Below, piece by piece: positions 33,024-49,354 of a stretch of DNA of 64,000 nucleotides; the stretch's first letter is position 1; each line of letters opens with the position of its first letter. The notes under the pieces are model-generated. The model was not told the DNA's origin, did no database searches, and saw nothing but the letters and a program-made list of their open reading frames with translations. Source of the DNA: Immundisolibacterales bacterium (lineage in GTDB: Bacteria; Pseudomonadota; Gammaproteobacteria; HK1); the NCBI GenBank assembly GCA_026712715.1, contig JAPOPW010000024.1:62001-126000 (forward strand). The letters are read 5' to 3'. A program made the translations under genes and the position numbers.

Positions 33024-33878
33024 TCAGGAGAATGCGACCCGGAAACCCGTATGCCCCGTCGACGTGTCGATGGAGTTGGAGATTCGGGCCGCAATCCGGT
33101 AGCGGAAGCACGAGTCCGGATGACAGAGGTAGGAGCCCCCTTTGAGCGTCTTGCGGGGCACGAGGCTGCCGATGGCTTCGGACTCGTTGTCGGCGCTGGA
33201 GGATGTCCATTCCCAGACGTTGCCGACCATGTTGTACAGACCGTAGCCGTTCGCGGCGAATGCGTCCGCCGCCACCGGTCCGACCTCCTTCGGATTCGCT
33301 TCCGGCGAGCCGGTCTGACCGAAACGGCACCTCGGGTCGGTGGCGTCGGGCTCGTCGTCTCCCCAGGGATACCGGACGTCCGGCTTTCCCCCGCGAGCCG
33401 CGTGCTCCCACTCCACTTCGGTCGGGAGGCGTCCTCCGCACCACATCGCGAATGCGGCGGCATCGTTGAAGCTGACGTGCACCACCGGCAGGGCTTCCAG
33501 GCCGGCGACACTGACACTGCGGCCCTTCGGATGCAGCCAGTCGGCCCCTTCGACCCTGCACCACCAGGGAAGCTCCGCAACCCGCCCCTCGACGGGTTCC
33601 GTGTGGACGAGGGCGCCCGAGAACACGAAGGACCAGCCGAACCGCTCGGCCTCGGTCCGGTAGCCGGTTTCGGCAACGAAAGTCGCGAACTGCCGATTGG
33701 TGATCGCGGTGGCCGTCATGCGCAGCGGTGCGACCGTCCGTTCCCGCAACGGACTCTCCCCGTCGCCCGGAAATACCGGGCGGTTCGTCCCCACGAGGGC
33801 CCGTCCGCCGGGGATCCTGACCGTGTCCATCCCGGGCGAGGCCGACGTGCAGCTGCGGACCGCCGCCTGCCGCTGCAT
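33024..33878 (-). CDS. Formylglycine-generating enzyme (sulfatase-modifying factor)
   Basis: FGE-sulfatase domain protein (284 aa) that oxidises the active-site cysteine of type I sulfatases to formylglycine. The catalytic cysteine pair is Cys252 and Cys257 in GGSYLCHPDSCFRYR, the arrangement of true copper-dependent FGEs and not just FGE-like domains. Further family motifs are LPTEVEWEHAARGG and NVWEWTSS. The ATG overlaps the sulfatase stop (TGATG), so both are made together. It could also mature the second sulfatase at 40779. Confidence 0.92.
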   Translation of the reverse strand: MQRQAAVRSCTSASPGMDTVRIPGGRALVGTNRPVFPGDGESPLRERTVAPLRMTATAITNRQFATFVAETGYRTEAERFGWSFVFSGALVHTEPVEGRVAELPWWCRVEGADWLHPKGRSVSVAGLEALPVVHVSFNDAAAFAMWCGGRLPTEVEWEHAARGGKPDVRYPWGDDEPDATDPRCRFGQTGSPEANPKEVGPVAADAFAANGYGLYNMVGNVWEWTSSSADNESEAIGSLVPRKTLKGGSYLCHPDSCFRYRIAARISNSIDTSTGHTGFRVAFS

Positions 33879-35350
33879 CAGCCGGTCCTGATCGTCTCGG
33901 GCGGGCGGTGCAGCGGATCGTCGATGGTCTTGCGCTCCGCTTCCACCCCTTCGAACCACGTTTCGAGCTCGGTCAGCAACTTCCGGGTCAGTTCCGGGTG
34001 CCGATCGGCCACGTCGTATTGTTCTTCCGGATCGTTTGCCAGGTTGAAGAGCTGCGGCTTTTCGGCAGATGGATACTTGATGTTCGGTACCGGCAACAGC
34101 TCGGTGACGGACGCCGGGTCTTCCTTGTGCTTGATGTCCGCTTCGATGAACGCCGCGGTTCGAGCCGCGTCCTCGTCGGACACGAAGAGATCGGGATTCT
34201 GGTAGTACCGCGTCCCCGCAATCATCGGTCGAACCAGCTTCCAGTCGCCATCGCGAACGGCGGCATTGGTCGACACGCTGGGATAGTAGAAGTTCCATTG
34301 CCAGAAGCGTCTCGGCGGGCGCCCGGGCTCCTCGCCCCGGAGCTGATCGCCGAGATCGTGGCCGTCCAGAGCATTGGCGCCGACCGGGACGACTCCGCAC
34401 ATCGAGGCCAGGGTCGGCATCCAGTCGGTGAAGTGGGCAAGGCTGCAGTTGACCGCGTTCGCAGGCAGGCGGGCGGGATGACGCAGGATCATCGGCACCC
34501 TTATTCCGCCTTCGTAGACCCAGCCCTTGGAACCCCTGAGTCCGGCGTTGAACCGTTCGTTGAACGTGCTCTCGCCCGGAGCGAGCATGAAGGGCGGATT
34601 GAAGAACGCCGGTCCGTTGTCGCTGGTGAACAGGACCAGGGTGTCGTCGGTGAGGCCATGGCGATCCAGTGTCTCCAGGACCTGGCCAATGCCGGAATCC
34701 ATTGCCTCGACCATGGCATACGTCGTCGCGACGATCCGATCGTGCCCCTGCTCGAGGTAGCGCTCTACCAGGGGCCCGGGGGCCTGAAACGGAGAGTGCG
34801 GCGCGCTGTATGCGAGCATCAGGAAAAATGGATCGGCGCGATGCCGGTCCAGGAAGTCGCAAGCGTGACCCGTCAGGACGTCCGTCAGGTAGCGGCCGTC
34901 ACCCTTGTTGACCGTGGCGTTGGTTTGCAGGTGCCAGTCGTAGTAGTCGGACCACCCGCCACAGAATCCGGCAAATTCGTCGAATCCGCGTGCATTCGGC
35001 TCGAACCGCGCATCGAGCGCGCCGTTGTGCCACTTTCCGACGAGGCCGGTGGTGTAGCCGGCCGCCTTGAACATGTCAGCCATCGTCGTCTCGCGCAGCG
35101 CGATGCGATCCAGGCCGTAGACTTCGAACTGCCCGACCGCGCCGGTGCGGTGCGGATACCGTCCGGTCAGGAGTGCGGCGCGGGCCGGTGAGCAGATTGG
35201 CGACCCCGAATAGTGTTGCCGCATGCAAACGCCTTCGGCAACGAGTCTGTCCAGGTGGGGGGTTCGAACCCGCCCTTCGCTGAACGCTCCCAGGTCGCCA
35301 TATCCCATGTCGTCGGCGACGATAAAGAGGACATTCGTTTTCCTGCTCAC
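33878..35350 (-). CDS. Type I sulfatase (arylsulfatase-like)
   Basis: Formylglycine-dependent sulfatase (490 aa). The maturation motif CSPAR places the modified cysteine at residue 53, in PICSPARAALLTGR. The metal ligands begin with Asp13-Asp14 in VADDMGYGD, and the SDNGP segment holds further ligands. There is no signal peptide, so it acts in the cytoplasm on an imported sulfate ester. It lies 25 nt after the binding-protein gene of a sugar-type importer and overlaps its maturation enzyme. Confidence 0.92.
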   Translation of the reverse strand: MSRKTNVLFIVADDMGYGDLGAFSEGRVRTPHLDRLVAEGVCMRQHYSGSPICSPARAALLTGRYPHRTGAVGQFEVYGLDRIALRETTMADMFKAAGYTTGLVGKWHNGALDARFEPNARGFDEFAGFCGGWSDYYDWHLQTNATVNKGDGRYLTDVLTGHACDFLDRHRADPFFLMLAYSAPHSPFQAPGPLVERYLEQGHDRIVATTYAMVEAMDSGIGQVLETLDRHGLTDDTLVLFTSDNGPAFFNPPFMLAPGESTFNERFNAGLRGSKGWVYEGGIRVPMILRHPARLPANAVNCSLAHFTDWMPTLASMCGVVPVGANALDGHDLGDQLRGEEPGRPPRRFWQWNFYYPSVSTNAAVRDGDWKLVRPMIAGTRYYQNPDLFVSDEDAARTAAFIEADIKHKEDPASVTELLPVPNIKYPSAEKPQLFNLANDPEEQYDVADRHPELTRKLLTELETWFEGVEAERKTIDDPLHRPPETIRTG

Positions 35351-35375: not shown

Positions 35376-36641
35376 CTAGCGCGACAACAGGCGCTGGATG
35401 GACTTGTCGGCCGCGGCCAACGCGGCCGGGATATCGCCGCCCTTGACGATCTTCTGCATTTCCGGCGCCAGCTTGCTCATCACGGCATAGAACTTGGGGC
35501 TCTTCCACGGATTGTCATGGGTGTAGGCGAGGGATCCGATGAAGATCTGACTGTAGGCGTCTTCCCCAACGGCTCCCTTCATCAACAACGGCATGCTCGA
35601 GGTCGGAATCTGGCCGTTGATGTCGAAGTACATGGAGGTATTGTCTTCATCGAAGATCAGCATGTCGAGAAATGCCGCCGTCAACGTCTTGTTCTTCGAC
35701 TTGGAAGACATGGTTATCTCATGCGGATTCCCAATCGTCCTCCTGGTTCCGTCCGGCGCCATCGGCATGGGCGCCACCCAGACATCGCCATCCGCTGTCA
35801 CGGTCATCTTGCCGCCGGACATGTTCTCCACCAGGCCCCGACCCCAGGGTCCTTCGAAAATCACGCCGGCCCGGCCGGCGGCAAAGACGTTCCGGGATTC
35901 CGCGTGCCCGTGCCCGACGGCGGTGCAGCCGGAGCCGGTCACCTCCTGAAGCCATGCAAAGGCGGCTTCGTTCTCCGGCGTGTTGAGCATGACCTCGCCA
36001 TCTTGCTGAATGTCGCCGCCGTGACCGTACATGATCGGAATCGACCACTGGGCGGAATTCGGGTTCTGCGAGGTTCTCAGGGCGGCGCCATAGATCTTGG
36101 CGCCGTCCTTGTCCGGCAACGCGCAGATCGCCTTGATCAGGGCCATCAACTCCGGCCAGGTCTGCGGGTACACGTCGGGATCGAGCCCGGCCTCCTTCAT
36201 CAGATTGCGGTTGTAGTGCGGATGGATCGGCCCGGGCACCCACGGCAGGGCGTAGAGCTTGCCGTCGACGGAGACGGAGTCACGCAGCGCCTGGGGAATC
36301 GTCTCGAGCTTCTCCTCGCTGAAGTACTCGTTCAACGGCTCCAGCCCCCCGATGCCCTGTACCGCCGGAACCCACCCCGCAATGAGATGAATTGCGTCCG
36401 CCGGGTTGCCGGCCATCGTCGTGACCGTGGCCTGGTTCAGCGCCTTGTCGAACGCGGTGTCGACTATCTTGAGGTCGGCGCCCGTCTTCTCCTTGAATTT
36501 CCTCTGGATCTGGTAGATGAGGTCCGCGTTCTTGTCGTAGGTCCCCAGCCACCCCGAGTAGGTTATGGTTTCCGCCGCGTGTGCGGACATGGCCGTCAAC
36601 AAGACTGCCGATGCCAGCATGTACCTTGCGAATCTTGGCAT
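35376..36641 (-). CDS. Extracellular solute-binding protein, family 1 (sugar type)
   Basis: Periplasmic binding protein (421 aa) of the carbohydrate/polyol group. The signal peptide is about residues 1-22, cleaved after Ala-His-Ala. The mature N-terminus ETITYSGWLGTYDKNADLIYQIQRKFKEKTG is typical. It is the fourth gene of the ABC-sulfatase operon, after the ATPase and permeases, so its ligand is probably a sulfated sugar or another sulfate ester. Confidence 0.88.
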   Translation of the reverse strand: MPRFARYMLASAVLLTAMSAHAAETITYSGWLGTYDKNADLIYQIQRKFKEKTGADLKIVDTAFDKALNQATVTTMAGNPADAIHLIAGWVPAVQGIGGLEPLNEYFSEEKLETIPQALRDSVSVDGKLYALPWVPGPIHPHYNRNLMKEAGLDPDVYPQTWPELMALIKAICALPDKDGAKIYGAALRTSQNPNSAQWSIPIMYGHGGDIQQDGEVMLNTPENEAAFAWLQEVTGSGCTAVGHGHAESRNVFAAGRAGVIFEGPWGRGLVENMSGGKMTVTADGDVWVAPMPMAPDGTRRTIGNPHEITMSSKSKNKTLTAAFLDMLIFDEDNTSMYFDINGQIPTSSMPLLMKGAVGEDAYSQIFIGSLAYTHDNPWKSPKFYAVMSKLAPEMQKIVKGGDIPAALAAADKSIQRLLSR

Positions 36642-36709: not shown

Positions 36710-37561
36710 CTACTTCAGTGCGCCCGCGGTCATGCCCTTCAGGAACGACTTCTGCATGACCATGAACAGGAGAAAGACCGGAAGCGTCACCATGACGGCG
36801 AGCGCCATCATCTCCGACCAATCCCCCTCGAACTCGCCGAGAAAGGCGAGGGTAATTCCGGCCGGCAACGTCCGCACCTCCGGAGAGCTGACGAACGTGA
36901 GGCCCATGAGAAGCTCGTTCCACGAGGTCACGAAGACGAATATGGCCGACGCGGCGAGGCCCGGACGAACCATCGGCAGCACGATGTGGATCAACACCGA
37001 GAACGGAGGAGCGCCGTCGAGCAACGCCGCTTCCTCCATGTCGACCGCAATCTGGTCGATGAACTTGGTCATCAACCACACCGACAAGGGCAGGCCGAGG
37101 GTCGTGTTTCCGAGAATCAGCGCCCAGTAGGTGTCCAGAAGCCCCAGTTGATAGAATGTCGAGTACATCGTGATCATCAGCAACGGGAGTGGGAACGCCA
37201 TGGATGCGAGAAAGAACAGAAGCAGCGCGTTCTTGTACGGGAAGTAGAAACGCGAAATCGCATAGGCACACAAGGACCCGGCAAACGTCGACAGCACCGC
37301 CGCCGCCCCGCTGACGATCAGGCTGTTTTGAAACATGCGGATCAGCCGGGTATCGAACTGATTCACGTAGTTGGTGAACGTGAACTCGTGCGGCCAAAGT
37401 TCCGGCGGGACGACAAACAGGCTTTCGAGCGGCTTGAAGGAGGTCACGACCAGCCAGTAGATCGGGAGCAGCAGGAACGCGAAGGCGCTGATCGCGATCG
37501 TGTAGGCGGCCATCGCGTTGATGTTTCGATACGTGACCAGCGGGCGGGTCGGGTTGCTCAC
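36710..37561 (-). CDS. Sugar ABC transporter permease, MalG type
   Basis: Inner-membrane permease (283 aa) with six predicted segments. The cytoplasmic EAA loop reads EEAALLDGAPPFSVLIHIVLPMVRPG. It starts at a GTG whose last two bases belong to the TGA stop of the MalF-type gene (GTGA overlap). Pairs with that protein and the ATPase at 38492. Confidence 0.9.
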   Translation of the reverse strand: MSNPTRPLVTYRNINAMAAYTIAISAFAFLLLPIYWLVVTSFKPLESLFVVPPELWPHEFTFTNYVNQFDTRLIRMFQNSLIVSGAAAVLSTFAGSLCAYAISRFYFPYKNALLLFFLASMAFPLPLLMITMYSTFYQLGLLDTYWALILGNTTLGLPLSVWLMTKFIDQIAVDMEEAALLDGAPPFSVLIHIVLPMVRPGLAASAIFVFVTSWNELLMGLTFVSSPEVRTLPAGITLAFLGEFEGDWSEMMALAVMVTLPVFLLFMVMQKSFLKGMTAGALK

Positions 37562-38451
37562 TTCACGTGCTCTTTCTTCATGCCGAATCGCAGGATGAGC
37601 CAGGCCACGATGATGAGAAACGCCAGCCAGAGCGTTCCGGCCGCGGAAGCCAATGCAAAGTCCCAGTTCTCGAAGGCCAGTTGATAGGTGAACAGGCTCA
37701 GCACCATGGTGGCATTGATCGGCCCCCCCTGGGTCAGCAGCAACGGCAGGGTCATTTCCTGGAAGAAGCGCACGGAGTCGAGGAGAAGCGCGACCATAAG
37801 CACGTTGCGAATCAAGGGAAGGATGATGTGGCCGATGCGATTGACGAAGCGTGCGCCATCGAGCTCGGAAGCCTCGAGAATCTCGGTGGAGATGGACTGC
37901 AGGCCCGCCAGGGCGATGACCATCAGGAACGGAATGGAACGCCAGGTGAATCCCGCGATCATGACCCACTGCGCGCCCGTCTCGTGGAACAGGATGTCCA
38001 GGTTGGTCTCGGTGATGCCCGAAGCCGTCAGCATGTAGTTGATCAGTCCGTAGTCCGTGTTGAACAGCCAACCCCACAGGATGGTGATGCAGATCCAGGG
38101 GAATACCCAGACCTGGAACACCAGTGAACGAAAGAGCGGGGCGAACCGCTTGACGCCGAAGTGGAGCAGCAGGGCGCAAAAGAACCCCATGATCACCGCG
38201 AGAGCGGAAGAGACGAAGACGATGTAGCTGGTGTTGACGACGGACGCGTAGTAGACGTCGTCTTCGAGCAGATACTCGTAGTTTTCGAGACCGACAAATT
38301 GCGGCAGCTCCGGACGCAGGGGGGAGGCATCGGTGAAGCTGAGCACGATGCCATTGACGACCGGGTACAGGATCAGGAATCCGACAATGAGCGCCGCGGG
38401 CAGGACCAGGCCCGCGAAGAACACCGGGTACTTCCTTACCCGGTAGAGCAC
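37558..38451 (-). CDS. Sugar ABC transporter permease, MalF type
   Basis: Inner-membrane permease (297 aa). The EAA loop reads LEASELDGARFVNRIGHIILPLI. The N-terminus MLYRVRKYPVFFAGLVLPAALI is the usual first membrane segment. Second gene of the six-gene operon. Confidence 0.9.
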   Translation of the reverse strand: MLYRVRKYPVFFAGLVLPAALIVGFLILYPVVNGIVLSFTDASPLRPELPQFVGLENYEYLLEDDVYYASVVNTSYIVFVSSALAVIMGFFCALLLHFGVKRFAPLFRSLVFQVWVFPWICITILWGWLFNTDYGLINYMLTASGITETNLDILFHETGAQWVMIAGFTWRSIPFLMVIALAGLQSISTEILEASELDGARFVNRIGHIILPLIRNVLMVALLLDSVRFFQEMTLPLLLTQGGPINATMVLSLFTYQLAFENWDFALASAAGTLWLAFLIIVAWLILRFGMKKEHVK

Positions 38452-38491: not shown

Positions 38492-39565
38492 TCAGTTCAC
38501 TCGAGTTCCCGAATCCTTGTCGAACAGCAGTATCGCGCCCCGGCTCGGCGAGAGACGGATCGCGTCGTTTTGTCTGGGCGCCACCCGACGCGGCATCTGG
38601 CAAGCAACCTCCCGGCCTTCGAATTCGGAGAAGATGAACGTCTCGACCCCAGTGGGCTCCACGACCTTCACGGTCGCCCGGATCGGACCGTTCTCCTCGT
38701 CGATTTCGAGTTGATGCGGCCGCACGCCCAGCAGAACCGGCGTGTCCACGAGGGAAGGGGGAAGATCGGGAACGGATATCATGCTGCCGTCAAACAGGCG
38801 AACGGAAAGATCCCCCTCTCGCCCGACAACACGTCCATCCAGCAGGTTGATGGAAGGAGCGCCCAGGAACGTGGCCACGAACACGTTGGTCGGGTCGTCA
38901 AACAGCTCCAGCGGCGGCCCGACTTGCTCGATGACCCCGTTGTTCATGACCACGATTCGGTCGGCCATGGTCATTGCTTCGATCTGGTCATGCGTCACGT
39001 AAACGGACGTGGCGTTGATTCGTTGATGCAGGTGTCGAATCTCGGTGCGCATCTGCACGCGCAGCTTCGCGTCCAGATTGGACAGCGGCTCGTCGAACAG
39101 GAACACCCCCGGATCACGGACCATTGCGCGGCCCATGGCAACCCGCTGTCGTTGTCCACCGGAAAGCTGGCCGGGATGCCGGTCCATGAGCGTGTCGAGT
39201 CCGAGCGTCTCGGCGACGGCGCGGACACGCTGGTCAATCTGGTCGCGCTTGTAGCGGTGCATCTTCAAGCTGAAGCTCAGATTCTCCCGTACCGTCTTGT
39301 GCGGATAGAGCGCATAGCTCTGGAACACCATCGCGACGTGGCGATCACCCGGTCGCAGGTCGTTCACGACGTCACCGCCGATCTCTATCGTGCCGACGTC
39401 GACCTCCTCCAATCCGGCAATCAGTCTCAGCAGGGTCGACTTGCCGCAGCCCGACGGACCGACGAGAACGCAGAACTCCTCGTCGGTGATCGTCAGGTTG
39501 ATGTCCTTCAGCACTTCGACCGGGCCGAACGACTTCGAGAGATCGGTGAGAGTAATTGCGGCCAC
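38492..39565 (-). CDS. Sugar ABC transporter ATP-binding protein (MalK/UgpC-like)
   Basis: ATPase (357 aa) that powers the importer. Walker [10 protein letters not shown] is at about residues 36-44, the signature LSGGQRQR, Walker [14 protein letters not shown] and the switch His [10 protein letters not shown] follow. The C-terminal part (about 240-357) is the OB-fold/TOBE regulatory domain. The GTG at 39565 immediately precedes the conserved [13 protein letters not shown] and has a GGAGG site 11 nt upstream; the long in-frame extension upstream covers the promoter and cannot be coding. First gene of the operon, with an AT-rich operator 38-65 nt upstream. Confidence 0.92.
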
Positions 39566-39602
39566 TCGGTCCCAGCCTCCGTGGGTCGGCTCCCTGTCAT
39601 TT

Positions 39603-39630
39603 ATATATGAAAACGAATTCACATATGATA
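39603..39630 (-). promoter_or_regulatory. Putative IclR operator, copy 1
   Basis: Read on the - strand: TATCATATGTGAATT, four variable bases, TTCATATAT. It is an imperfect dyad with 11-bp half-sites around a 2-bp centre. It covers the -10 box and start region of the ABC-sulfatase operon, which fits repression. 25 of 28 positions match copy 2 at 44292-44319. Confidence 0.7.
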
Positions 39631-39651
39631 CGCTCATCGCGTCCTTGTCAA
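39625..39651 (-). promoter_or_regulatory. Predicted sigma70 promoter of the ABC-sulfatase operon
   Basis: On the - strand TTGACA (39651-39646) and TATCAT (39630-39625) are separated by 15 nt, a little short of optimal. The -10 box lies inside the operator dyad. Confidence 0.5.
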
Positions 39652-39823
39652 CCCCTTTCCGGTTCCGAGTCGGGAGAAATCGTCTGTCCGGTGCCGCCGC
39701 CCGCGAGCTGTCCGGCCCGATGGTCGATGGGGAGGTGCCGCGCGACCCGGACGCGCGTGCGGCAGGTGGTCCGAGGGCCGAGGCTCGAAAAGGCGTGCGG
39801 CGGGTTGCGGGCTCCGCGGTCAC

Positions 39824-39839
39824 GGGGTGGGTGGGTGGG
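39824..39839 (+). other. G-quadruplex motif
   Basis: GGGG followed by three GGG tracts, each separated by a single T: four G runs with 1-nt loops, the most stable parallel G-quadruplex layout. It lies on the IclR-coding strand, about 150 nt before its start. Confidence 0.6.
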
Positions 39840-39991
39840 TGCGTAGGTGAAGCGCAACGGGGGCGCTGCGGGAACGAGGGACTCGAAGGGCGGCTCGATG
39901 ACCGGATGAGCGGGACCCCTCCCTGCACTTGCCGGTCGGTGATTCGCGCGAGCGAGAGCATCTTCGAGAATGACGACGGACGGGAACCTGC

Positions 39992-40786
39992 ATGCACAAG
40001 AGGCCGAAGTACTCCGCCCCTGCGCTGGAAAAGGGGCTCGACATCATCGAGTACCTTTCCAGCCGGGACGAAGGCGAGAACCTGACGTCGATTGCCTCCG
40101 GGATCGGCAAGTCGAACGGCGAGATCTTCCGGATGCTGTCGGTTCTCGTACAGCGGGGATTCGTGGACCGGCTTCCGGAATCAGACCGCTTCCTGTTGTC
40201 GGACAAGCTCTTTCGGCTGGGCTTGAACCGGCCGAGGAAGAAGAACCTCATGGCGCTGGCCATCCCTGCAATGGAGGAGTTCGCCAGAGAGTGCCAGAAC
40301 GCCTGCCATCTCGCGGTAAGGGCCGGCAACGAGATCGTTGTCGTCACTCGGGTCGAATCCCCGATCAACGTCGGAATTGCCGTGCGGGTCGGACATCGGC
40401 TCCCGATGGCGCAGGCCCCTTCGGGGCGGTGCATTGCCGCATTCTCGCGAGCGGACGAAATCGAAGCGATGGTGAGCGAGATCCGGAGGTCCGAAGGTGC
40501 GAGGAAGGCGAAGGAGTTTCGCTCCTCGATCGAGGAAGTTCGGCGGCTCGGATACAGCCTCGTGAAGGATGGGTTCTCGGTCGGGGTGACCGGCGTGTCG
40601 GCACCGGTACTCGACCTCGACAGCCGGCAGTGCATCGCGGCGATGACGTCGCCGATTCTGCACTACGTGCACCTCGAGAATGCCGACCTCGAGAAAATCG
40701 CGTCGCGCCTGCGTCATCACGCGGACGCGGTATCCAGGCAGTACAGCAACCACATGGCCGATCCGGGTAGAGCATCCGATGACTGA
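39992..40786 (+). CDS. IclR family transcriptional regulator
   Basis: Regulator (264 aa) with an N-terminal winged helix (about residues 8-70: ALEKGLDIIEYLSS, then LTSIASGIGKSNGEIFRMLSVLVQRGFV) and a C-terminal ligand-binding domain (about 85-250) with the family pattern SGRCIAAF. It sits between two sulfatase units and probably controls both through the paired 28-bp dyads. The last 8 nt overlap the second sulfatase gene, so regulator and sulfatase are coexpressed. Likely a repressor relieved by an intermediate of the pathway. Confidence 0.9.
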   Translation: MHKRPKYSAPALEKGLDIIEYLSSRDEGENLTSIASGIGKSNGEIFRMLSVLVQRGFVDRLPESDRFLLSDKLFRLGLNRPRKKNLMALAIPAMEEFARECQNACHLAVRAGNEIVVVTRVESPINVGIAVRVGHRLPMAQAPSGRCIAAFSRADEIEAMVSEIRRSEGARKAKEFRSSIEEVRRLGYSLVKDGFSVGVTGVSAPVLDLDSRQCIAAMTSPILHYVHLENADLEKIASRLRHHADAVSRQYSNHMADPGRASDD

Positions 40787-42260
40787 CACGAACCATCCGA
40801 ATGCGATCATCGTCATGGTGGACCAGATGAAGGCGACGGCGTCGCACCTGTATGGCCGTCACGGCATCCGGACTCCCGGGCTCGAGCGGCTGGCGAGGCT
40901 CGGCGTACGGTACGAGCATGCGACGACGCCGCATCCGCTGTGCGTTCCGGCGAGAGTCGCAATGTGGACGGCCATGAATCCCCACCGCACCGGCTGCACC
41001 GTGAACCGGACACCCATGCCCGGGGGGATGCCGCATGCGGCCAGATGGTGGAAGGAGCACGGATACGAGCTGGCGCTGCTCGGCAAGAACCACTGCTTCG
41101 CGGAAACGGAGGACTACGATCTCTTCGATGTCTGGTGCGAAATTGAGCACTACGGATTCAGGGACAGGCTGCCGCACTACGGATTCAAGGAAGGCGCCCC
41201 GGACGCGGAGTCGCCCAAGGGAATGGACTGGGTCGAATCCGAACACCTGGTGACCGCGGCGCACGCGGTCCGCAACGACATGCCTTCGCCGCGAGGCGGG
41301 GTGTCGTCATACGCCGCAACCGGGTTCGAGCATCGACACTACAGCACCGGGCTGCTTTCCAACCAGGCCGACGCGTATATCCGCCAGGTCCATGAACGTC
41401 CTTTCGTGCTCTGGCTCTCCGTGCCGGACCCCCATGTTCCGTACGAAACACCGATACACTTCTTTGAGCAAGCCACGGCACAACGTGTCGAGCTGCCGCC
41501 GCCGGGTCCGGTCCCCGACGTCGACCTGCCCGTGCGCAACCGGATCCTCAGCCGGATCATGCGCTGGCCCGACGAGCATGTGGATGACCTCAGGAATGTC
41601 GTTGCCGCCTATCATGCGAACGTCCTGCACATCGACAAGCTGATCGGTCGCCTGCTCGATACGTTGGAAGAAACGGAACAGCTCGGCGAGACCATCGTCG
41701 TCTTTTGCGCAGACCATGGCGATTTTGCCGGCGAGCATCAGATGGCGGCGAAGGGTGGCGTGCTGTACGACTGCCTGGTTCGCGTCCCGATGATCGTCGC
41801 GGCGCCGGAACGGTTTCCGCAGGACGAGCTCGTGCTCTCGCCGGTCAGTCTCGTCGACGTCGTCCCGACCCTGTTCCGTCTGCAGGGCCTGGAGCTACCC
41901 GGCGGCCTGGACGGGCAACCGATGAGACCGTGTCCCGGCGCGAAGGAACGAGCGTTCGGCTACTCGCTCTATGGGGCGAGAGGGCCTGCCTTCACCATGG
42001 AGCAACTCGAGACCACGGTTCCGTCAACCGGACATGCCGCCCTGTTCAAGACGGTCGTGCATCGCGAGCCCGAAGGGGACCGATCGATGATTCGCAATGC
42101 GCAGTGGAAGCTGGTTCACGATCCGATGGGGGACCTGGATGAGCTGTATTGCCTGGAATCCGACCCGTACGAGCATCGCAACCTCGCCCATGACGGGCGC
42201 CATGCGGCGCTCAAGAGGGAGCTGATGACCGAGCTGTACCGTTGGCGTCGATGGTCGTGA
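40779..42260 (+). CDS. Type I sulfatase/alkaline-phosphatase superfamily hydrolase
   Basis: Second sulfatase (493 aa). The maturation motif is CVPAR with Cys55, in PHPLCVPARVAMWTAMNPHRTG. Metal-site residues begin at Asp15-Gln16 (VMVDQ), as in choline-sulfatase and phosphonate-monoester-hydrolase subgroups, and HGDFAGEHQMAAKGG is a further conserved segment. No signal peptide. The ATG overlaps the IclR stop by 8 nt. It is only distantly related to the sulfatase at 33878, so it probably acts on a different ester, perhaps a later step. Confidence 0.9.
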   Translation: MTDTNHPNAIIVMVDQMKATASHLYGRHGIRTPGLERLARLGVRYEHATTPHPLCVPARVAMWTAMNPHRTGCTVNRTPMPGGMPHAARWWKEHGYELALLGKNHCFAETEDYDLFDVWCEIEHYGFRDRLPHYGFKEGAPDAESPKGMDWVESEHLVTAAHAVRNDMPSPRGGVSSYAATGFEHRHYSTGLLSNQADAYIRQVHERPFVLWLSVPDPHVPYETPIHFFEQATAQRVELPPPGPVPDVDLPVRNRILSRIMRWPDEHVDDLRNVVAAYHANVLHIDKLIGRLLDTLEETEQLGETIVVFCADHGDFAGEHQMAAKGGVLYDCLVRVPMIVAAPERFPQDELVLSPVSLVDVVPTLFRLQGLELPGGLDGQPMRPCPGAKERAFGYSLYGARGPAFTMEQLETTVPSTGHAALFKTVVHREPEGDRSMIRNAQWKLVHDPMGDLDELYCLESDPYEHRNLAHDGRHAALKRELMTELYRWRRWS

Positions 42261-42289
42261 GCCATTCCGGTTGTCCCGGAATTCGGTCG

Positions 42290-42410
42290 CAGGAACGGCC
42301 GAACGGGTCAGCCGCATCGTCGCCGCCACCTGGAACCGGTCCACGGCCAGTGCCGGCAACACCATTCCTCCGAGCCCGCCACGTCCGGAGGTCGGAAAGA
42401 CGTTCCTGAC
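42290..42410 (-). pseudogene. Fragment of an OppB/DppB-type ABC permease
   Basis: Downstream of the peptide-type binding-protein gene, where its permease gene would normally start, the - strand encodes about 39 residues: VFPTSGRGG, then MVLPALA and QVAATMRLTRSAV. This is the central cytoplasmic-loop region of oligopeptide permease B proteins. Sequence on both sides is unrelated, so only a short internal piece remains. No start, no EAA-to-end portion and no partner permease or ATPase survive here. Confidence 0.55.
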
Positions 42411-42479
42411 GGCGGCCGGAAGCCGGATCGGGTCGATGCGCGGCCAGGCCTGCGGGACCGCCGGCCCCCGGCAACGCGA

Positions 42480-42512
42480 CCATGGCCGGCGCGACGGCGC
42501 GGCCGGCCATGG
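42480..42512. repeat. 11-bp inverted repeat after the binding-protein gene
   Basis: CCATGGCCGGC and GCCGGCCATGG with an 11-nt loop form a stable hairpin 15-47 nt downstream of the binding-protein stop. No T tract on the - strand; it may slow or end transcription. Confidence 0.5.
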
Positions 42513-42526
42513 TGATGTCCAACCCC

Positions 42527-44170
42527 TCAGCGAGCAGCCTGGATGAGGTGCCAGTGGCCGTACCCGGCCGACGTGACACCCGGAAATTGCCAGCCCGCCA
42601 CGTACTTCGGATTGATGGCCACCTGCGTGTATCCGTCGAACAGCGGAATGTCGACGTATTGCTCGAACAGGTAGTTCTGGATATCGCGGGCAAGTCGGTC
42701 ACGCTTCGCAGAATCGATCGTGCTGATCAGCTCCTCGATGTGGGTTGCCGTCCAGTCGTCCTCCCAACCCTGCAGCCCGCCACCCGGATTGGTATAGAAC
42801 GCGCGGAACGCCACCTCGGTGGGCCGCGGCGGCGCATTGCGGCCGGGGTTGATCATGTACAGCTTGCGCTCGCGACCGAGGGCGCGTACCCGCGCATAGT
42901 CCAGCTCGACGATTTTCGCCTGGAATCCGACCTGGGTCAGGTACTGGTACACCAACTCCTGCTGCAGCGGAACTTCCGGCATGCCGGCCATGGGGGTCAG
43001 CACGATCGGAATGGTCGGATCCTCGAACGCGTCCGGATAGCCCGCGTGCCACATGAGCTGCCTGGCCTTCTCGGGATCGTAACCGTACTCGGCCTCGAAG
43101 CGTTCTTCCAGGACGGGGTCGTAACCTTCGTTGCCCTTGACCATGGTGTAGCGGGCGTGCGGAGAATATCCCCCGGCCGGGAACAGCACCTCCAGCATTT
43201 CCTTGCGATTGATGGCGCGGTTGATCGCCTCGCGGATACGCACGTCGTACCAGGGCAGCCCCTTGCGGCAGCGATCGTCATGCGACTCGCAGTACAGCCC
43301 GTTGAAGACCAGGTCGGTCTGAATGGATGGCAGGGTGGACTCGACGGTGGTCATCCCCGCCGCCAGGGCCTCGGGCATCAACTCCCGCGAAATGTCGGCA
43401 ATGTGGGCTTCTTCCGCCAGCAGCATCGCCAGCTTGGTGGCCGGTTCCGTCACGAAACGTACCTCCAGCTCCCTGAATTCCGGCGTAATGCCCGAGTAAT
43501 GGTCCTCGAAGCGCTCGTACAGGATCCGGCCCGGCTCCCGCGAGACGAACTGATAGTGTCCCGTTCCCGCGAAGCGGCGGTCATAGCCCTCCAGGCCCTC
43601 CTCGTCGAACTGCTTCTTGCTGTAGATCTGCATGATGGAATGAGCGCCATGCAGGTACAGCAGATTGGTGCGCGGCTTTTCGTAGTCGAAGCGCACCGTG
43701 TAGTCGTCCAGGACCTCCACCTTCGCGCCGCGCAGTTGATCCGCAGACGGAATGACCGAGTCCTCGCCTGCGCTCAGCTCATAGCTGTGCACGACGTCCC
43801 GGGCCGTGAACTCGCCGTACCCGTGGTGAAACTGAACCCCCTTTCGCAGATGAAAGGTCCATTGGGTGAAGTCGTCGTTGTGTTCCCACGACGTGGCCAG
43901 CCCGTCGCCGGTGTACTCGCCCGTCACCGGGTCGTTCGCCACCAATCCTTCCAGGGATTGCCCGAGCGCGTGCCAGAGGCTCGTGGCCGCCCACGAACGG
44001 TTGGTCTCGCCGCCGGGCGGGGTCAACGCGGCGACCACGCGATCGTTTTCCTGCGCCGTTGCCGCTCCGCCCCACGGCAATATCGAAAGCGCCAACGCCA
44101 CGGCGGCGGCCGTGGCGGCCGAGCGACGAAACGGGCTGCGTACCCGGCATGAAGTGTGAATTGTGGTCAT
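42527..44170 (-). CDS. Extracellular solute-binding protein, family 5 (peptide/nickel/opine type)
   Basis: Periplasmic binding protein (547 aa) of the DppA/OppA class. The signal peptide spans about residues 1-40. Family features are LATSWEHNDDFTQWTFHLRKGVQFHHG and FTARDVVHSYEL. The ATG at 44170 follows an AGGAGAGGA ribosome site. Its expected permease genes are missing except for a fragment at 42290-42410, so it is orphaned or uses a permease elsewhere. A 28-bp dyad like that of the sulfatase operon lies 122 nt upstream, linking it to the same regulator. Confidence 0.88.
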   Translation of the reverse strand: MTTIHTSCRVRSPFRRSAATAAAVALALSILPWGGAATAQENDRVVAALTPPGGETNRSWAATSLWHALGQSLEGLVANDPVTGEYTGDGLATSWEHNDDFTQWTFHLRKGVQFHHGYGEFTARDVVHSYELSAGEDSVIPSADQLRGAKVEVLDDYTVRFDYEKPRTNLLYLHGAHSIMQIYSKKQFDEEGLEGYDRRFAGTGHYQFVSREPGRILYERFEDHYSGITPEFRELEVRFVTEPATKLAMLLAEEAHIADISRELMPEALAAGMTTVESTLPSIQTDLVFNGLYCESHDDRCRKGLPWYDVRIREAINRAINRKEMLEVLFPAGGYSPHARYTMVKGNEGYDPVLEERFEAEYGYDPEKARQLMWHAGYPDAFEDPTIPIVLTPMAGMPEVPLQQELVYQYLTQVGFQAKIVELDYARVRALGRERKLYMINPGRNAPPRPTEVAFRAFYTNPGGGLQGWEDDWTATHIEELISTIDSAKRDRLARDIQNYLFEQYVDIPLFDGYTQVAINPKYVAGWQFPGVTSAGYGHWHLIQAAR

Positions 44171-44657
44171 TCTCCTCTCCTTTCATTTGGATGGAGCAGG
44201 TGGGGGAGGGCGCGGTCACCGCTTGGTTGATGGCACGGGCGACCGCCTCATGGTAACCACATCGTGCCGATGTGCTCGACGGGAACCAACCTATCATATG
44301 TGAATTGGAATTCATATATGAATTCAAGGGAATCTCGTGGGTCGTCGTTTCGGCGCGTTTCGGGTCGCCCCGGCCGTTCGCGCGGCAGCTTGGGCGCCTC
44401 TCCGTGCGCCTCGCACCTGGCCCGTCCGGGCGTCGCAGCCATGGAGAGAGTGTGATCCGGCGGGGCGCGTGGGGGCTGAGAGCTCCGGAGCACGGCCGCG
44501 AGTCGAACGCGGCTGTCATCGGCAGTGCGACGGATTCGACCCGCACGGGCGCAGCGACGGCACCCGGCCGGCAGGCCCGCGCAAGCGCATGGACGAATTG
44601 CCTTTCGAAGCCGGGTGGAGCGTGGCCGGCGGGCGCCGAGCCGATGAGTCCGACGGC
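44171..44657. promoter_or_regulatory. Upstream region of the peptide-type binding protein
   Basis: 487 nt holding the second operator (44292-44319). A TATGAT box on the - strand (44298-44293) lies inside it and could be the -10. The part right of 44330 shows nothing recognisable. Confidence 0.5.
44292..44319 (+). promoter_or_regulatory. Putative IclR operator, copy 2
   Basis: TATCATATGTGAATT, GGAA, TTCATATAT. The dyad ATATGTGAATT-GG-AATTCATATAT has 10 of 11 half-site positions paired, a better palindrome than copy 1. It is strikingly AT-rich in a GC-rich setting. Confidence 0.7.
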
Positions 44658-46655
44658 TCAGGTACGGGCGGGCCGGCGCCGGCGCCGGTGCCGGGCGGCG
44701 CGCCCGGCCGGCTCGGCCGGCGGCGAAGGGAGGTCCACCGCCGCGCGCAGCTTCGCGTAGGGGGCGCTCCGGTGCGGGATCGCCATCGCGTCGACGAAGT
44801 GCTCCTGGAACCGCGGTTCCACCGCGGTCTCCACCTTCTCGATGTCCCGCACCACGCGTTCGAGCTCGCGGCGAAGGCGCCGGTTGAGCAGGGCGATGCG
44901 CGCACCGGTCCCGGCCGCGTTCCCGGCTGAAGTCACCCGACCCGGTTCGCAGTCCGGGACCATGCCGAGGATGAGCGCGTACTTCGGATCGATCTGGCTT
45001 CCGAAGGCCCCCGCGAGGGTCACCCGCTCCACCGCTTCAATCCCCATCCGGTCCATCAGCAGGCGGGCGCCCGCGTAGAGGGCCGCCTTGGCGAGCTGGA
45101 TCTGGCGCACGTCGTTCTGGGTGATCGCGATCTCGGGCTCTCCGCGCCGGACCACGTACGTGAAGGTGCGTCCGGTGCGGACGATGCGGGGCGAGCGCTC
45201 CGCGAGCGTGCCGTCGATGGTGCCGTCGGCAAGCACGATGCCGGCGAGGAAGAGCTCCGCGATCGCCTCGACGATCCCTGAGCCGCAAATCCCGCTCGGG
45301 GCTGGCTCGAAGCCCGGCTCGTCGGACCAGCGATCGTCCCCGATTACCCGGTAACGGGGCTCGAGAGTGTCCGGATCGATGCGGATCCGTTCGATGACGC
45401 CGGGCGCCGCCCGCTGTCCGCAGCTCAACTGGGCGCCTTCGAACGCCGGGCCGGTCGGCGACGAGGCGGCGAGCAGTCGTTCGGAGCTCCCGAGCACGAG
45501 CTCCGCATTCGTCCCCACGTCGACGATGAGGGTGACCTCCTTCCTCCGGTAGGGCATCTCGCTCAGTACCACCCCGGCCGCGTCCGCGCCCACGTGCCCC
45601 GCGATGCACGGCAGCACGTAGGCGCGCGACGCGTCGCCGAGGCGAAGGCCGATGTCCGCCGCGGAGAGCTCGGTGCCCTCGTCCGTCGCAAGCGCGAACG
45701 GGGCGAATCCGAGCGGCGCGGGGTCGAGACCGAGCAGGAGGTGGTGCATCACCGGGTTGCCCGCGACGGTGACCTCGAGCACGTCCTCCGGCTCGACCCC
45801 GGCGGCGGCGGCCGCCTCGGAGGCGAGATCGTCGAGCGCCTCGCGGATTGCCTGCGTCATCTCCGCCGCCCCGCCCTCGTTCATCATCGCGAACGAGACC
45901 CGGCTCATGAGGTCCTCTCCGAAACGGATCTGGGGGTTCATCCGACCGAGGGAGGCAAGGACCTCGCCGGAGAGCAGATCGCAGAGGTGCACCGCGAGGG
46001 TCGTCGAGCCGACGTCCACCGCGAGACCGTAGACCTTGTCGCGGTAGCCGGGCCGGAGGTCCACGAGCCGGCGCCGCTCGCGGACGAAGGCGGTCGCCCG
46101 GTAGCCGCTCGCCTCGAGGGTCGGATGGAGCTTGCGCAGAACGTGCGTGTCGGCCTCCGTGACCCGCACGCCGAACGCCTCCCGGAGACTCGCCTTCAGC
46201 CGCCGCAGGTGCGCGGCCGGTCGCGCGAGGTCCGGCGGCGCGACCTCGACGTACATCGGCCGCACGAGCGGGTCGATGCGAATGCTGCGGACCGCGGCCC
46301 GCTTGCGCACGATCTGGCGGTGGACCTGGCTCGTCTCCGGGACGTCCGCCACGAGATCGCCGGCGACGCACGCCTGGCAGGAGAGGCGATGCCCCTCCTT
46401 GAGTCGGCCGGTCGCGAGCTGGCGCTGCTCCCGGTCCGTGAGCCCGGTCAGATGGTCGCGCGCCGAGACGATGCCGTGCTTGGCGAATTCCCCCGTGCTC
46501 ACGCGCACCTGGCAGCGCGTGCAGATGCCACGCCCCCCGCATACCGAATCGAGATCGACCCCGAGACGTCGCGCCGCGGAGAGGAGCGGCGTTCCGACCG
46601 CGAAATGGCCGCGGCGACCCGACGGGGTGAAGACGACGAGCGGTTGATCAGCCAC
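44658..46655 (-). CDS. RACo-like reductive activator of corrinoid protein (ASKHA domain, ferredoxin domain)
   Basis: ATP-dependent reactivator (665 aa) that returns oxidised Co(II) corrinoid to Co(I). The N-terminal plant-type [2Fe-2S] domain (about 1-100) has Cys39, Cys45, Cys48 and a fourth Cys at 93 or 96. A linker region follows, and from about residue 210 the ASKHA ATPase domain begins with GLAVDVGSTTLAVHLCDL and contains a second phosphate-binding segment VDVGTNAELVLG. The start is a GTG at 46655, overlapping the methyltransferase stop by 8 nt. It is the last gene of the corrinoid operon. Confidence 0.88.
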   Translation of the reverse strand: MADQPLVVFTPSGRRGHFAVGTPLLSAARRLGVDLDSVCGGRGICTRCQVRVSTGEFAKHGIVSARDHLTGLTDREQRQLATGRLKEGHRLSCQACVAGDLVADVPETSQVHRQIVRKRAAVRSIRIDPLVRPMYVEVAPPDLARPAAHLRRLKASLREAFGVRVTEADTHVLRKLHPTLEASGYRATAFVRERRRLVDLRPGYRDKVYGLAVDVGSTTLAVHLCDLLSGEVLASLGRMNPQIRFGEDLMSRVSFAMMNEGGAAEMTQAIREALDDLASEAAAAAGVEPEDVLEVTVAGNPVMHHLLLGLDPAPLGFAPFALATDEGTELSAADIGLRLGDASRAYVLPCIAGHVGADAAGVVLSEMPYRRKEVTLIVDVGTNAELVLGSSERLLAASSPTGPAFEGAQLSCGQRAAPGVIERIRIDPDTLEPRYRVIGDDRWSDEPGFEPAPSGICGSGIVEAIAELFLAGIVLADGTIDGTLAERSPRIVRTGRTFTYVVRRGEPEIAITQNDVRQIQLAKAALYAGARLLMDRMGIEAVERVTLAGAFGSQIDPKYALILGMVPDCEPGRVTSAGNAAGTGARIALLNRRLRRELERVVRDIEKVETAVEPRFQEHFVDAMAIPHRSAPYAKLRAAVDLPSPPAEPAGRAARHRRRRRPART

Positions 46656-47559
46656 CGCGCCGCCGGCCCTGGCGGCGGCGCGCCCGCGCCTCGGCGATCG
46701 CGTCCCCTCCCGCGCCGGCCCCCGAATTGCGCGCAATCCAGGCACGGCAGTTGCGGTCGTGGCCCATCATGACGTCCGCCGCCCCGAGCGCGGTCATGAT
46801 CTCGGGCTCGAGGGGGTTGGTGATCGCGGAAGTGAGGCCGCTCGCCATGCCCATCGAGAGGAACGCGGCATTGAGGGCGGGCCGCGCCGGCAGCCCGAAG
46901 GAGATGTTGGAAGCGCCGCACGTCGTGTTGACCTCGAGCTCTTCGCGGAGCCGGCGGATGAGGCGGAAGGTGGTGCGGCCGGCCTCCCCGATCGCCCCGA
47001 TCGGCATGACGAGGGGGTCCACCACGACGTCGCTTCGCGGGATCCCGTGGTCCGCCGCCCGTTCCACGATCTTGCGGGCGACCTCGAAGCGCACGTCGGG
47101 GTCCTCGGAGATGCCGGTCTCGTCGTTCGAGATCGCGACGACGGCCGCTCCGTGCCGGGCGATGAGCGGCAGCACGGACTCGAGGCGCTCCTCCTCGCCG
47201 GTCACGGAGTTGACGAGCGCCTTGCCCCGGTAGGCATCGAGACCCGCCTCCAGGGCCGCGACGATCGAGCTGTCGATGGAAAGCGGCGCGTCGGTCAGCG
47301 ACTGGACGAGCTCGACGCACTCGCGCAGGATGCGCGGCTCGTCGGCGAGCGGCACACCCGCGTTCACGTCCAGCATGCGGGCGCCGGCCTGGACCTGGGC
47401 GACGGCGTCCGTTTCCACCCGCCGATAGTCTCCCGCCGCCATCTCCTCGGCCAGGCGCCTGCGGCCGGTGGGGTTGATGCGCTCCCCGATCACCACGAAG
47501 GGTCGGTCGAAGCCGATGACGACCTCTCTCGTGGCGGACGAGATGACGGTATCGGTCAT
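46648..47559 (-). CDS. Methyltetrahydrofolate:corrinoid methyltransferase-like protein
   Basis: TIM-barrel pterin-binding protein (303 aa) of the group including AcsE, MtrH and MtgA. Markers are VVIGERINPTGRR at the N-terminus, ARMLDVNAG, SIDSS and NTTCGASNISFGLP. It should move the methyl group from the corrinoid protein to tetrahydrofolate. The C-terminal 25 residues are Arg-rich and not conserved. It overlaps the RACo-like gene. Confidence 0.87.
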   Translation of the reverse strand: MTDTVISSATREVVIGFDRPFVVIGERINPTGRRRLAEEMAAGDYRRVETDAVAQVQAGARMLDVNAGVPLADEPRILRECVELVQSLTDAPLSIDSSIVAALEAGLDAYRGKALVNSVTGEEERLESVLPLIARHGAAVVAISNDETGISEDPDVRFEVARKIVERAADHGIPRSDVVVDPLVMPIGAIGEAGRTTFRLIRRLREELEVNTTCGASNISFGLPARPALNAAFLSMGMASGLTSAITNPLEPEIMTALGAADVMMGHDRNCRAWIARNSGAGAGGDAIAEARARRRQGRRRGG

Positions 47560-47589
47560 CGGCGATGCTCCTTCCCCGCGGGACTTTCG

Positions 47590-47901
47590 CTACGGGCTCG
47601 ACCGGCCGCCCGCTGCGACCATGCCGGCCAGCACCTCGTCGGTGAACTCGTCCTCCAGGCGCCGCGCGAGGGCGTCCGCGTCCGCCTCCGGATCGAGTCC
47701 GCCCGGGACCGGCTCGCTTCGCCGCCACTCGGCGAGGTAGTCGTCGGACCCGGCGAGACCCGCGCGCATGGCCGCGCGGTCGATGGCTTCCTGAAAGCGT
47801 CCGGAAAGCGCCCGTCGCGCGGTCCGGCTCCTTCCCGCGCCCCGGGCGATGACCTGGGCTGGAATGTCCCGCCAGTACACGACGGTGAGCGAGGAGCTCA
47901 A
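47590..47901 (-). CDS. Small 'virulence factor' family protein
   Basis: 103-aa protein beginning LTVVYWRDIPAQVIARG, the signature of a small Pfam family named virulence factor after an early report. The family name does not describe its job here; members often occur inside corrinoid methyltransferase operons. Start is a TTG overlapping the DUF1638 stop in TTGA, the same kind of junction as at 4363-4366. Confidence 0.75.
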   Translation of the reverse strand: MSSSLTVVYWRDIPAQVIARGAGRSRTARRALSGRFQEAIDRAAMRAGLAGSDDYLAEWRRSEPVPGGLDPEADADALARRLEDEFTDEVLAGMVAAGGRSSP

Positions 47902-48620
47902 GGAGCGGGCGGAGAGTCTTCGGTGGCGGGGTGCGGGAGCGCCCCGAACCCGCCGGCGGCCGGAGCCCGCGCCTCGGCCGCGGCTCGACCCTCGGGAAGC
48001 GCACGCGTCTCATGCGAACGGCTCGCGTGCTCGGCCCGATCGAGAAAGGGGGCGAGTCCGCCATATCCGGTGAAGCGGTGCTCGAACGCGAGCCCCAGGC
48101 GCGCGGCCGCCGCGCGCGCGGCGCCGAGGAGCTTCTCGTCCTCGGTCTGGGCGAGATACACCACCCTTCGGTAGTTTCCGAAGTACAGGGGCTCGAGCTC
48201 GGGGTGTCGATCGATCCCGAGGCCGCGGATGATCAGGCGGTCGAAGTTCCGGGCGAGGTAGTCCGTGAGATACAGGGTGCCGGGCTCGGCGTCGTGCAGC
48301 GCGGCGAACTCCTCGGCGCCGGCGAAGAATTCGTAGCAGTGGGCCCCGGGGAGCCGTTCCACGCCTACTTTCTCGAGCACCGCGTCGAGGGCGCCGCCCG
48401 TGCCGCAGTCGGCGTAGGCGACGAAAATGCGTCCGTATTCCCCATTCGCCCGCGCGGCGCGGATCTTCTCGCGTACCCCGCCCGGAATGCGCTCCGGAGC
48501 GTTGTGCCAGATCGCGGGAAGGCACTGCACCTCGATTGCGTGCCAGCCGTTCCGCCGGACGTGGGCCGCGATCTCGCGCGCGAGCGCCCCGCAGGCGATC
48601 ACGAGGGTGCGGGACGGCAC
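47898..48620 (-). CDS. DUF1638 domain-containing protein
   Basis: Protein of 240 aa with the DUF1638 pattern: TLVIACGALAREI, then the cysteine-bearing YADCGTGG segment and HCYEFF. Several conserved cysteines and histidines could bind a metal. The family regularly accompanies MttB-like methyltransferases and corrinoid proteins, but its biochemistry is unknown. The GTG at 48620, 17 nt after the corrinoid-protein stop, is the first start before the conserved part; its ribosome site is poor. Confidence 0.8.
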   Translation of the reverse strand: MPSRTLVIACGALAREIAAHVRRNGWHAIEVQCLPAIWHNAPERIPGGVREKIRAARANGEYGRIFVAYADCGTGGALDAVLEKVGVERLPGAHCYEFFAGAEEFAALHDAEPGTLYLTDYLARNFDRLIIRGLGIDRHPELEPLYFGNYRRVVYLAQTEDEKLLGAARAAAARLGLAFEHRFTGYGGLAPFLDRAEHASRSHETRALPEGRAAAEARAPAAGGFGALPHPATEDSPPAP

Positions 48621-48637
48621 CGGCGCCGCAGCCGCGT

Positions 48638-49354
48638 TCAGCCCGCCGCCAACATCGGCGGCGCGTGCTGGCGCCGGGCGGCGACCATTTCCTTCGCCGT
48701 CTCGACCGCCACCGCCGCGTCGCGGCAATAGGCATCCGCCCCGACACTCTGCGCGAACGCTTCGTTGAGGGGGGCGCCGCCGACGAGGACCATGTACTCG
48801 TCGCGAAGTCCCCGTTCCTCGAGGGTGTCGATCACCACCTTCATGTACGGCATCGTCGTGGTCAGCAGCGCCGACATGCCCAGGAAGTCGGGCCGGTGCT
48901 CCTCGAGCGCAGCGAGAAATGCGTCCGCGTCGTTGTTGATGCCGATGTCGAACACGTCGAAGCCGGCCCCCTCGAGCATCATCCCCACCAGGTTCTTGCC
49001 GATGTCGTGGATGTCGCCCTTGACGGTGCCGATGACGATCGAACCGAGTTTCGGTGCGCCGGTCTCCGCAAGGAGCGGTCGCAGGATGGTCATGCCCGCC
49101 TTCATCGAGTTTGCCGCGAGCAGCACCTCGGGGACGAACAGGATGCCGTCGCGAAAGTCGATTCCGACGATCCGCATTCCTTCCACCAGGGACTCGGTCA
49201 GCACCCGGTAGGGAGCCCATCCCCGGTCCAGGAGGATGTGGACGCCGTCGACCACCTCGTCCGCCAGACCGTCGTAGAGGTCTTCGTGCATCTGATTGAC
49301 GAGCTCTTCGTCGCTCAGCGTGGAAAGATCGAGCTCCTGCGCGTCATCCGGCAT
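48638..49354 (-). CDS. Corrinoid (B12-binding) methyltransferase protein
   Basis: Cobalamin carrier (238 aa) like MtbC, MttC or MtaC. An N-terminal helical cap (about 1-95) precedes a Rossmann-like B12 domain with the cobalt-ligating motif DxHxxG at 114-119 (His116). It accepts the methyl group from the MttB-like enzyme and passes it to the pterin methyltransferase. First gene of the - strand operon. Confidence 0.93.
   Translation of the reverse strand: MPDDAQELDLSTLSDEELVNQMHEDLYDGLADEVVDGVHILLDRGWAPYRVLTESLVEGMRIVGIDFRDGILFVPEVLLAANSMKAGMTILRPLLAETGAPKLGSIVIGTVKGDIHDIGKNLVGMMLEGAGFDVFDIGINNDADAFLAALEEHRPDFLGMSALLTTTMPYMKVVIDTLEERGLRDEYMVLVGGAPLNEAFAQSVGADAYCRDAAVAVETAKEMVAARRQHAPPMLAAG

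Follow-up and report, generated by a model that had tools for sequence, protein, structure and literature searches.

The control and the substrate of loci that combine sulfatases, an FGE/SUMF1-like sulfatase-maturing enzyme (hereafter FGE) and ATP-binding cassette (ABC) uptake genes are rarely known. One such cluster lies in the 64,000-nucleotide stretch of Immundisolibacterales bacterium DNA studied here (contig JAPOPW010000024.1, positions 62,001 to 126,000; hereafter the window), where a gene for an IclR-family regulator, iclR, lies between two near-identical short sites. Does this regulator act at these sites? We consider it highly probable that both sites serve as operators for the product of iclR (39992-40786); this is the best-supported reading of the comparisons described below.

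Two near-identical sites in the genome

Copy 1 (39603-39630, minus strand) reads TATCATATGTGAATTCGTTTTCATATAT and copy 2 (44292-44319, plus strand) reads TATCATATGTGAATTGGAATTCATATAT. An earlier note on this DNA had described two near-identical 28-bp dyads with 11-bp half-sites, copy 2 being nearly perfect, and inspection bears this out: 25 of the 28 positions are identical, the 15-mer TATCATATGTGAATT and the 9-mer TTCATATAT are common to both, and, as read off the sequence, copy 2 is an inverted repeat over 10 of 11 bp with a 2-bp centre and copy 1 over 8 of 11. Both 28-bp sites are AT-rich, and the GC content of the surrounding DNA is 67.8%. When the window was shuffled 100 times with its dinucleotides preserved, no match with up to three mismatches occurred, in agreement with the note's view that chance similarity is very unlikely. 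The genome scan that the note had proposed was run over the whole 5.05-Mb genome. With up to three mismatches the pattern ATATRTGAATTNNAATTCAYATAT matched copies 1 and 2 only, as did the looser pattern ATATRTGAAN6TTCAYATAT, and the reversed controls gave no match. As there are only two matches genome-wide and none for the control, a dispersed repeat is ruled out. A strict variable-gap pattern applied for further regulon members found none.

Three-box architecture and probable promoter

The 28-bp dyad is only a part of the conserved unit, which extends to a third half-site adjoining the TTCATATAT side at 39599-39604 in copy 1 and at 44318-44323 in copy 2. Operator 1, on the minus strand, consists of box 1 GTGAAT (39617-39622), a 4-nt gap, box 2 TTTCAT (39607-39612), a 2-nt gap and box 3 ATAAAT; operator 2, on the plus strand, consists of box 1 GTGAAT (44300-44305), the gap TGGA, box 2 ATTCAT (44310-44315), the gap AT and box 3 ATGAAT. 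Because the third half-site abuts the TTCATATAT side, copy 2 also holds the perfect 18-bp palindrome GAATTCATATATGAATTC. Classical IclR, KdgR and AllR operators are likewise AT-rich palindromes with TTTC/GAAA halves, but they have two boxes only, and their sequence and spacing are unlike those of the window operators.

Five core sites were compared: the two in the window, one in a genome of the same genus (G001) and two in locus L010 of a Rhodospirillales metagenome-assembled genome (G143). All five contain a box RTGAAW, 4 nt, TTTCAT or a variant, 2 nt and ATRAAW. Read against the published consensus (PMC8222616), the boxes of the five sites contain the RYGRAA/TTYCRY inverted half-sites of IclR-family operators, and the third box, ATRAA, stands beside box 2 in alternating orientation at window sites 1 and 2, in G001 and at both L010 sites. 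Operators made of three alternately oriented boxes have been reported for PcaU, PobR and HmgR as well as for 32 IclR orthologous groups, with box spacings of 3-4 nt in group 1 and 5-6 nt in group 2 (Suvorova and Gelfand 2021, PMC8222616). The window operators share with them the AT-rich RYGRAA/TTYCRY halves, the three alternating boxes, the position adjoining the regulator gene, and the combination of one group-2-like with one group-1-like pair. The gaps are shorter, at 4 nt for the group-2-like and 2 nt for the group-1-like pair, and all five core sites thus depart from the published spacings, which are a common consensus and not a strict requirement.

A probable promoter of the ABC-sulfatase operon, TTGACA-N17-TCATAT, abuts operator 1 and occurs also in L010; in the alignment of the two ugpC promoters it stands out, together with the operator, amid poorly conserved sequence. 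It was not among the promoters returned by a mechanical sigma-70 scan. The earlier note had placed copy 1 over a TTGACA/TATCAT promoter. TTGACA is retained; its distance to TATCAT, 15 bp, is short, and that to TCATAT is 17 bp.

Repression is suggested because site 1 overlaps this conserved TTGACA promoter. It is rather unlikely that the IclR protein binds the sites to activate transcription, in the manner of PcaU and PobR. The best-known three-box operators are those of PcaU, PobR and HmgR (PMC8222616), PcaU is termed an activator in the reference list of that paper, and IclR-family members are activators or repressors according to reference 32 as quoted in PMC12566272. However, operator 1 abuts the -10 region of the promoter, a position typical of repression, and the characterised IclR-family fucose regulator, FucR of C. 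jejuni, is a repressor. FucR represses a divergent fucose operon, and fucose itself gave no release in vitro (PMC12566272).

Conservation of the sites in related genomes

The closest relative of the window IclR in the genome collection, and the only close one found, is the 71% identical protein encoded in L010, where the cluster is kept at 71-89% protein identity. The comparison of orthologous loci that the earlier note had called for revealed both dyads in L010: one at L010:9853, between ugpC and iclR and 77 bp from the latter, and one at L010:15275, 136 bp before sbp5, the gene of the peptide-type binding protein. Phylogenetic footprinting thus places sites at both orthologous positions in a genome with the regulator. 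With 1 and 2 mismatches, these two dyads match better than any other sequence in the whole G143 genome. Three weak extra matches there (3 mismatches) are likely chance, and 3-mismatch matches in the distant genomes G018, G036, G052, G119 and G132 are at chance level, since the reversed control matched in 7 of 143 genomes. No further ortholog of the window IclR was found in 142 relatives, in 384 other class-sample genomes (relatives of about 40% only) or in 316 genomes of the order. The identity of 71-89% to L010, while 142 nearer relatives lack the IclR protein, suggests that the cluster may have been horizontally transferred.

The same comparison bears on whether the similarity of the sites could be non-regulatory, left by a recent duplication or by a mobile repeat whose inverted copy was carried with the region. 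The two copies are indeed mutually inverted and 89% identical, but the similarity stops at the operator edge, the genome holds no further copies, and the L010 copies at the same places differ in sequence with the boxes kept. In G001, too, the site is kept although a large part of the DNA from the site to the gene fails to align. Such an origin is already disfavoured by the box conservation at orthologous positions, and we regard it as highly improbable.

Candidate operators of related regulators

Nine more distant IclR relatives (36-42% identity), in plasmid and genome loci (L039-L047), were held out as a test set. A visibly related sequence lies directly upstream of iclR in six of them (L039-L042, L044 and L045, in loci of about 16-20 kb), for example TGTGAAATGGATAATCATATATGAAAT in L039 compared with TGTGAATTGGAATTCATATATGAATT in window copy 2. 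A matrix was trained on the five core sites, and the top-scoring site in the 200 bp before iclR was ranked within each locus. The ranks were 1 in L039, L040, L044 and L045, 2 in L041, 9 in L042, 12 in L046, 38 in L047 and 183 in L043. The mean log rank over the nine loci was equalled by 3 of 300 column-shuffled matrices, and the count of five loci at rank 3 or better by 6 of 300. The helix-turn-helix domains of the six positive relatives are 52-64% identical to that of the window IclR, compared with 35-40% for the full-length proteins, and five of the six keep the recognition helix GEIFRM (SEIYRM in L044), from which unrelated IclR proteins of the same genomes differ. Their loci share little else with the window cluster. 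The spacing of the boxes varies somewhat, the first gap being 5 nt in L039, L041 and L042 (second gap 2 nt) and 6 nt in L045.

In L039-L042 and L045, a second AT-rich motif, TTTACATAT-N-TGTATATAAAA, was recognised by eye and by score between iclR and the gene of a short-chain dehydrogenase/reductase (SDR) or an aldo-keto reductase, which suggests that operators may be paired in these deoxysugar loci. Candidate operator-like sites lie about 3 kb upstream of iclR in L046 (~4851) and L043 (~3.2 kb); the one in L046 is some 100 bp ahead of a TonB receptor gene, which precedes iclR in Croceicoccus.

Probable assignment of the sites to the IclR protein

Three observations tie the sites to the window IclR: both recur at equivalent positions with the orthologous IclR and cluster in L010/G143, a related operator directly precedes iclR in relatives with nearly the same recognition helix, and the box layout matches the published three-box IclR operators (PMC8222616). 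The IclR regulon claimed in the earlier note is supported by these comparisons. What sequence comparison shows is that the sites exist, that they are conserved and that they are linked to this IclR subfamily.

Several points weigh against the assignment. The matrix test is supportive, not overwhelming (modest, with p about 0.01-0.02), and L043, L046 and L047 have no site directly upstream of iclR. The full arrangement occurs in two genomes only. In G001 the site is retained on a 16-kb contig, in front of an sbp5 with 90% identity, but no IclR ortholog was found at E<=1e-8; the single IclR-family gene of G001 differs in the recognition helix, and the ABC binding protein of the sulfatase operon was not found in this genome. 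As the G001 assembly has 430 contigs and is about 95% complete, the cluster may simply be missing from it, or another protein may use the site there. In the window itself, iclR begins some 363 bp away from operator 1, which makes autoregulation less certain than in L010.

The site without a detectable ortholog in G001 would fit a different transcription factor, encoded elsewhere, with the IclR protein being a bystander or having other sites. We think this quite unlikely. Site and IclR occur together in the source genome (G000) and in G143, and both are missing from G002, a genome of the same genus on a single contig. Moreover, distant loci that otherwise have little in common with the window cluster carry related sites immediately before iclR, and no further regulator was noticed in the annotated parts of the cluster.

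Genes of the cluster and proposed regulation

The gene positions (Table 1) agree with the earlier note, which had the sites upstream of the ABC-sulfatase operon and of a peptide-type binding protein, flanking the IclR gene. Membership of the regulator in the IclR family is evident from PF09339 (41.9 bits, cut-off 22) and PF01614 (78.4 bits, cut-off 24).

Table 1 Features of the candidate IclR regulon in the window
Feature	Position	Strand	Evidence and remarks
Operator 1, three boxes	39599-39622	-	sequence; counterpart L010:9853-9876 in the ortholog; overlaps the 28-bp dyad 39603-39630
Operator 2, three boxes	44300-44323	+	sequence; counterparts L010:15275-15298 and L011:10070-10093; overlaps the dyad 44292-44319
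Probable promoter, ABC-sulfatase operon	39623-39651	-	TTGACA 39646-39651, 17 nt, TCATAT 39623-39628 abutting operator 1
iclR, IclR-family regulator, 264 aa, HTH_IclR and IclR_C	39992-40786	+	PF09339 8.8e-11, PF01614 6.4e-22
Sulfatase A, Cys-type motif CVPAR	40770-42260	+	PF00884 1.2e-38; ortholog 74% identical in L010
ugpC-like sugar ABC ATPase, first operon gene	38492-39565	-	NF008653 UgpC above cut-off; GTG start about 38 bp from the dyad
Sugar ABC permease 1, UgpA-like	37558-38451	-	PF00528; 85% identical in L010
Sugar ABC permease 2, UgpE/MalG-like	36710-37600 (start approximate)	-	PF00528 at residues 298-483 of the open reading frame
Sugar-type solute-binding protein	35376-36641	-	PF13416 6.7e-23; 89% identical in L010
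Sulfatase B, Cys-type motif CSPAR	33878-35350	-	PF00884 8.6e-64
FGE/SUMF1-like sulfatase-maturing enzyme, last operon gene	33024-33878	-	PF03781 1.2e-61
sbp5, peptide-type solute-binding protein (SBP_bac_5)	42527-44170	-	PF00496 2.5e-58; operator 2 centre about 137 bp upstream of the start

Operator 1 fronts the minus-strand operon, in which the ugpC-like ATPase, two permeases and the binding protein are followed by sulfatase B and FGE. Permease 2 corresponds to about the C-terminal 280 aa of the open reading frame 36710-38179. On the plus strand, sulfatase A starts within or just past the end of iclR (mechanically listed start of its reading frame, 40680), and the two genes are a probable single unit. 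The FGE/SUMF1-like gene was absent from the earlier account of the sulfatase operon. Both sulfatases have the C-X-P-X-R motif and, by eye, no obvious signal peptide; Cys-type sulfatases of this kind would fit the import of a sulfated small molecule and its desulfation in the cytoplasm, with FGE activating both enzymes.

We infer binding, repression rather than activation, autoregulation, and a probable sugar or sugar-acid ligand. Each three-box operator would be occupied by an IclR dimer or tetramer, at the inverted pair GTGAAW-N4-TTTCAT and at the third box, ATRAAW, 2 bp further out. Operator 1 would cover the promoter of the operon from ugpC to FGE and would probably also control iclR-sulfatase A in the opposite direction, and operator 2 would cover the promoter of sbp5. 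In the absence of ligand, IclR would repress both units; a metabolite of the imported compound would relieve repression, and uptake, desulfation and sulfatase maturation would be turned on together. A regulon of two transcription units, probably with autoregulation, is a reasonable interpretation.

In G001 and G143, sbp5 is followed by permease and ATPase genes, and in the window it stands alone. A decayed oppB-like fragment (42294-42467, minus strand), 62% identical over 58 aa to OppB of G001, lies just downstream, and the window SBP_bac_5 gene has apparently lost the permease genes that belonged to it. A 66% identical paralog of sbp5, with a full opp set upstream, is found on contig C55 (L022), and no operator site was found there. 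Beside the sulfatase cluster (44658-49354, minus strand) lies a corrinoid methyltransferase locus with a RACo-like activator, a pterin-binding methyltransferase, DUF1638 and B12-binding proteins.

Possible ligand and significance

The IclR regulators of Ruegeria TM1040 (TM1040_RS02420) and Azospirillum B510, like C. jejuni FucR, are regulators of non-phosphorylating L-fucose/L-rhamnose-type catabolism, and both their loci have an adjacent sugar ABC transporter and a related operator upstream of iclR. The Ruegeria locus encodes an L-fuconate dehydratase, an L-rhamnose mutarotase and an SDR besides its transporter. L039 encodes an SDR, an enolase-superfamily dehydratase, a rhamnose/ribose-type ABC transporter, an amidohydrolase and a protein that resembles 2,4-didehydro-3-deoxy-L-rhamnonate hydrolase, with a score under the curated cut-off. 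These gene contents suggest that the effector of the subfamily is a deoxysugar or sugar acid. Because the relatives sit in L-fucose/L-rhamnose-type oxidation loci, a related sugar metabolite is the probable inducer of the window IclR. The window cluster has two sulfatases and FGE instead of fuconate dehydratase or a related enzyme; since no such enzyme was found beside it, its effector is one that we infer from the relatives.

A literature search of partial coverage returned no described IclR regulon with sulfatase content. The regulon proposed here is a small new one of a familiar kind, within known biology, to which this analysis adds the third half-site, the conserved promoter, the ortholog with both sites and the subfamily motif. 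Tentatively, the subfamily may have kept a compact three-box operator (4 nt + 2 nt) while its regulon was rewired from L-fucose/L-rhamnose-type oxidation to sulfated-sugar uptake and cytoplasmic desulfation, with FGE-dependent sulfatases under common control. For the sulfatase/FGE/ABC uptake cluster itself, the two sites provide a testable candidate regulon, and the deoxysugar catabolic loci of the regulator's relatives point to an inducer that is a sugar or sugar acid.

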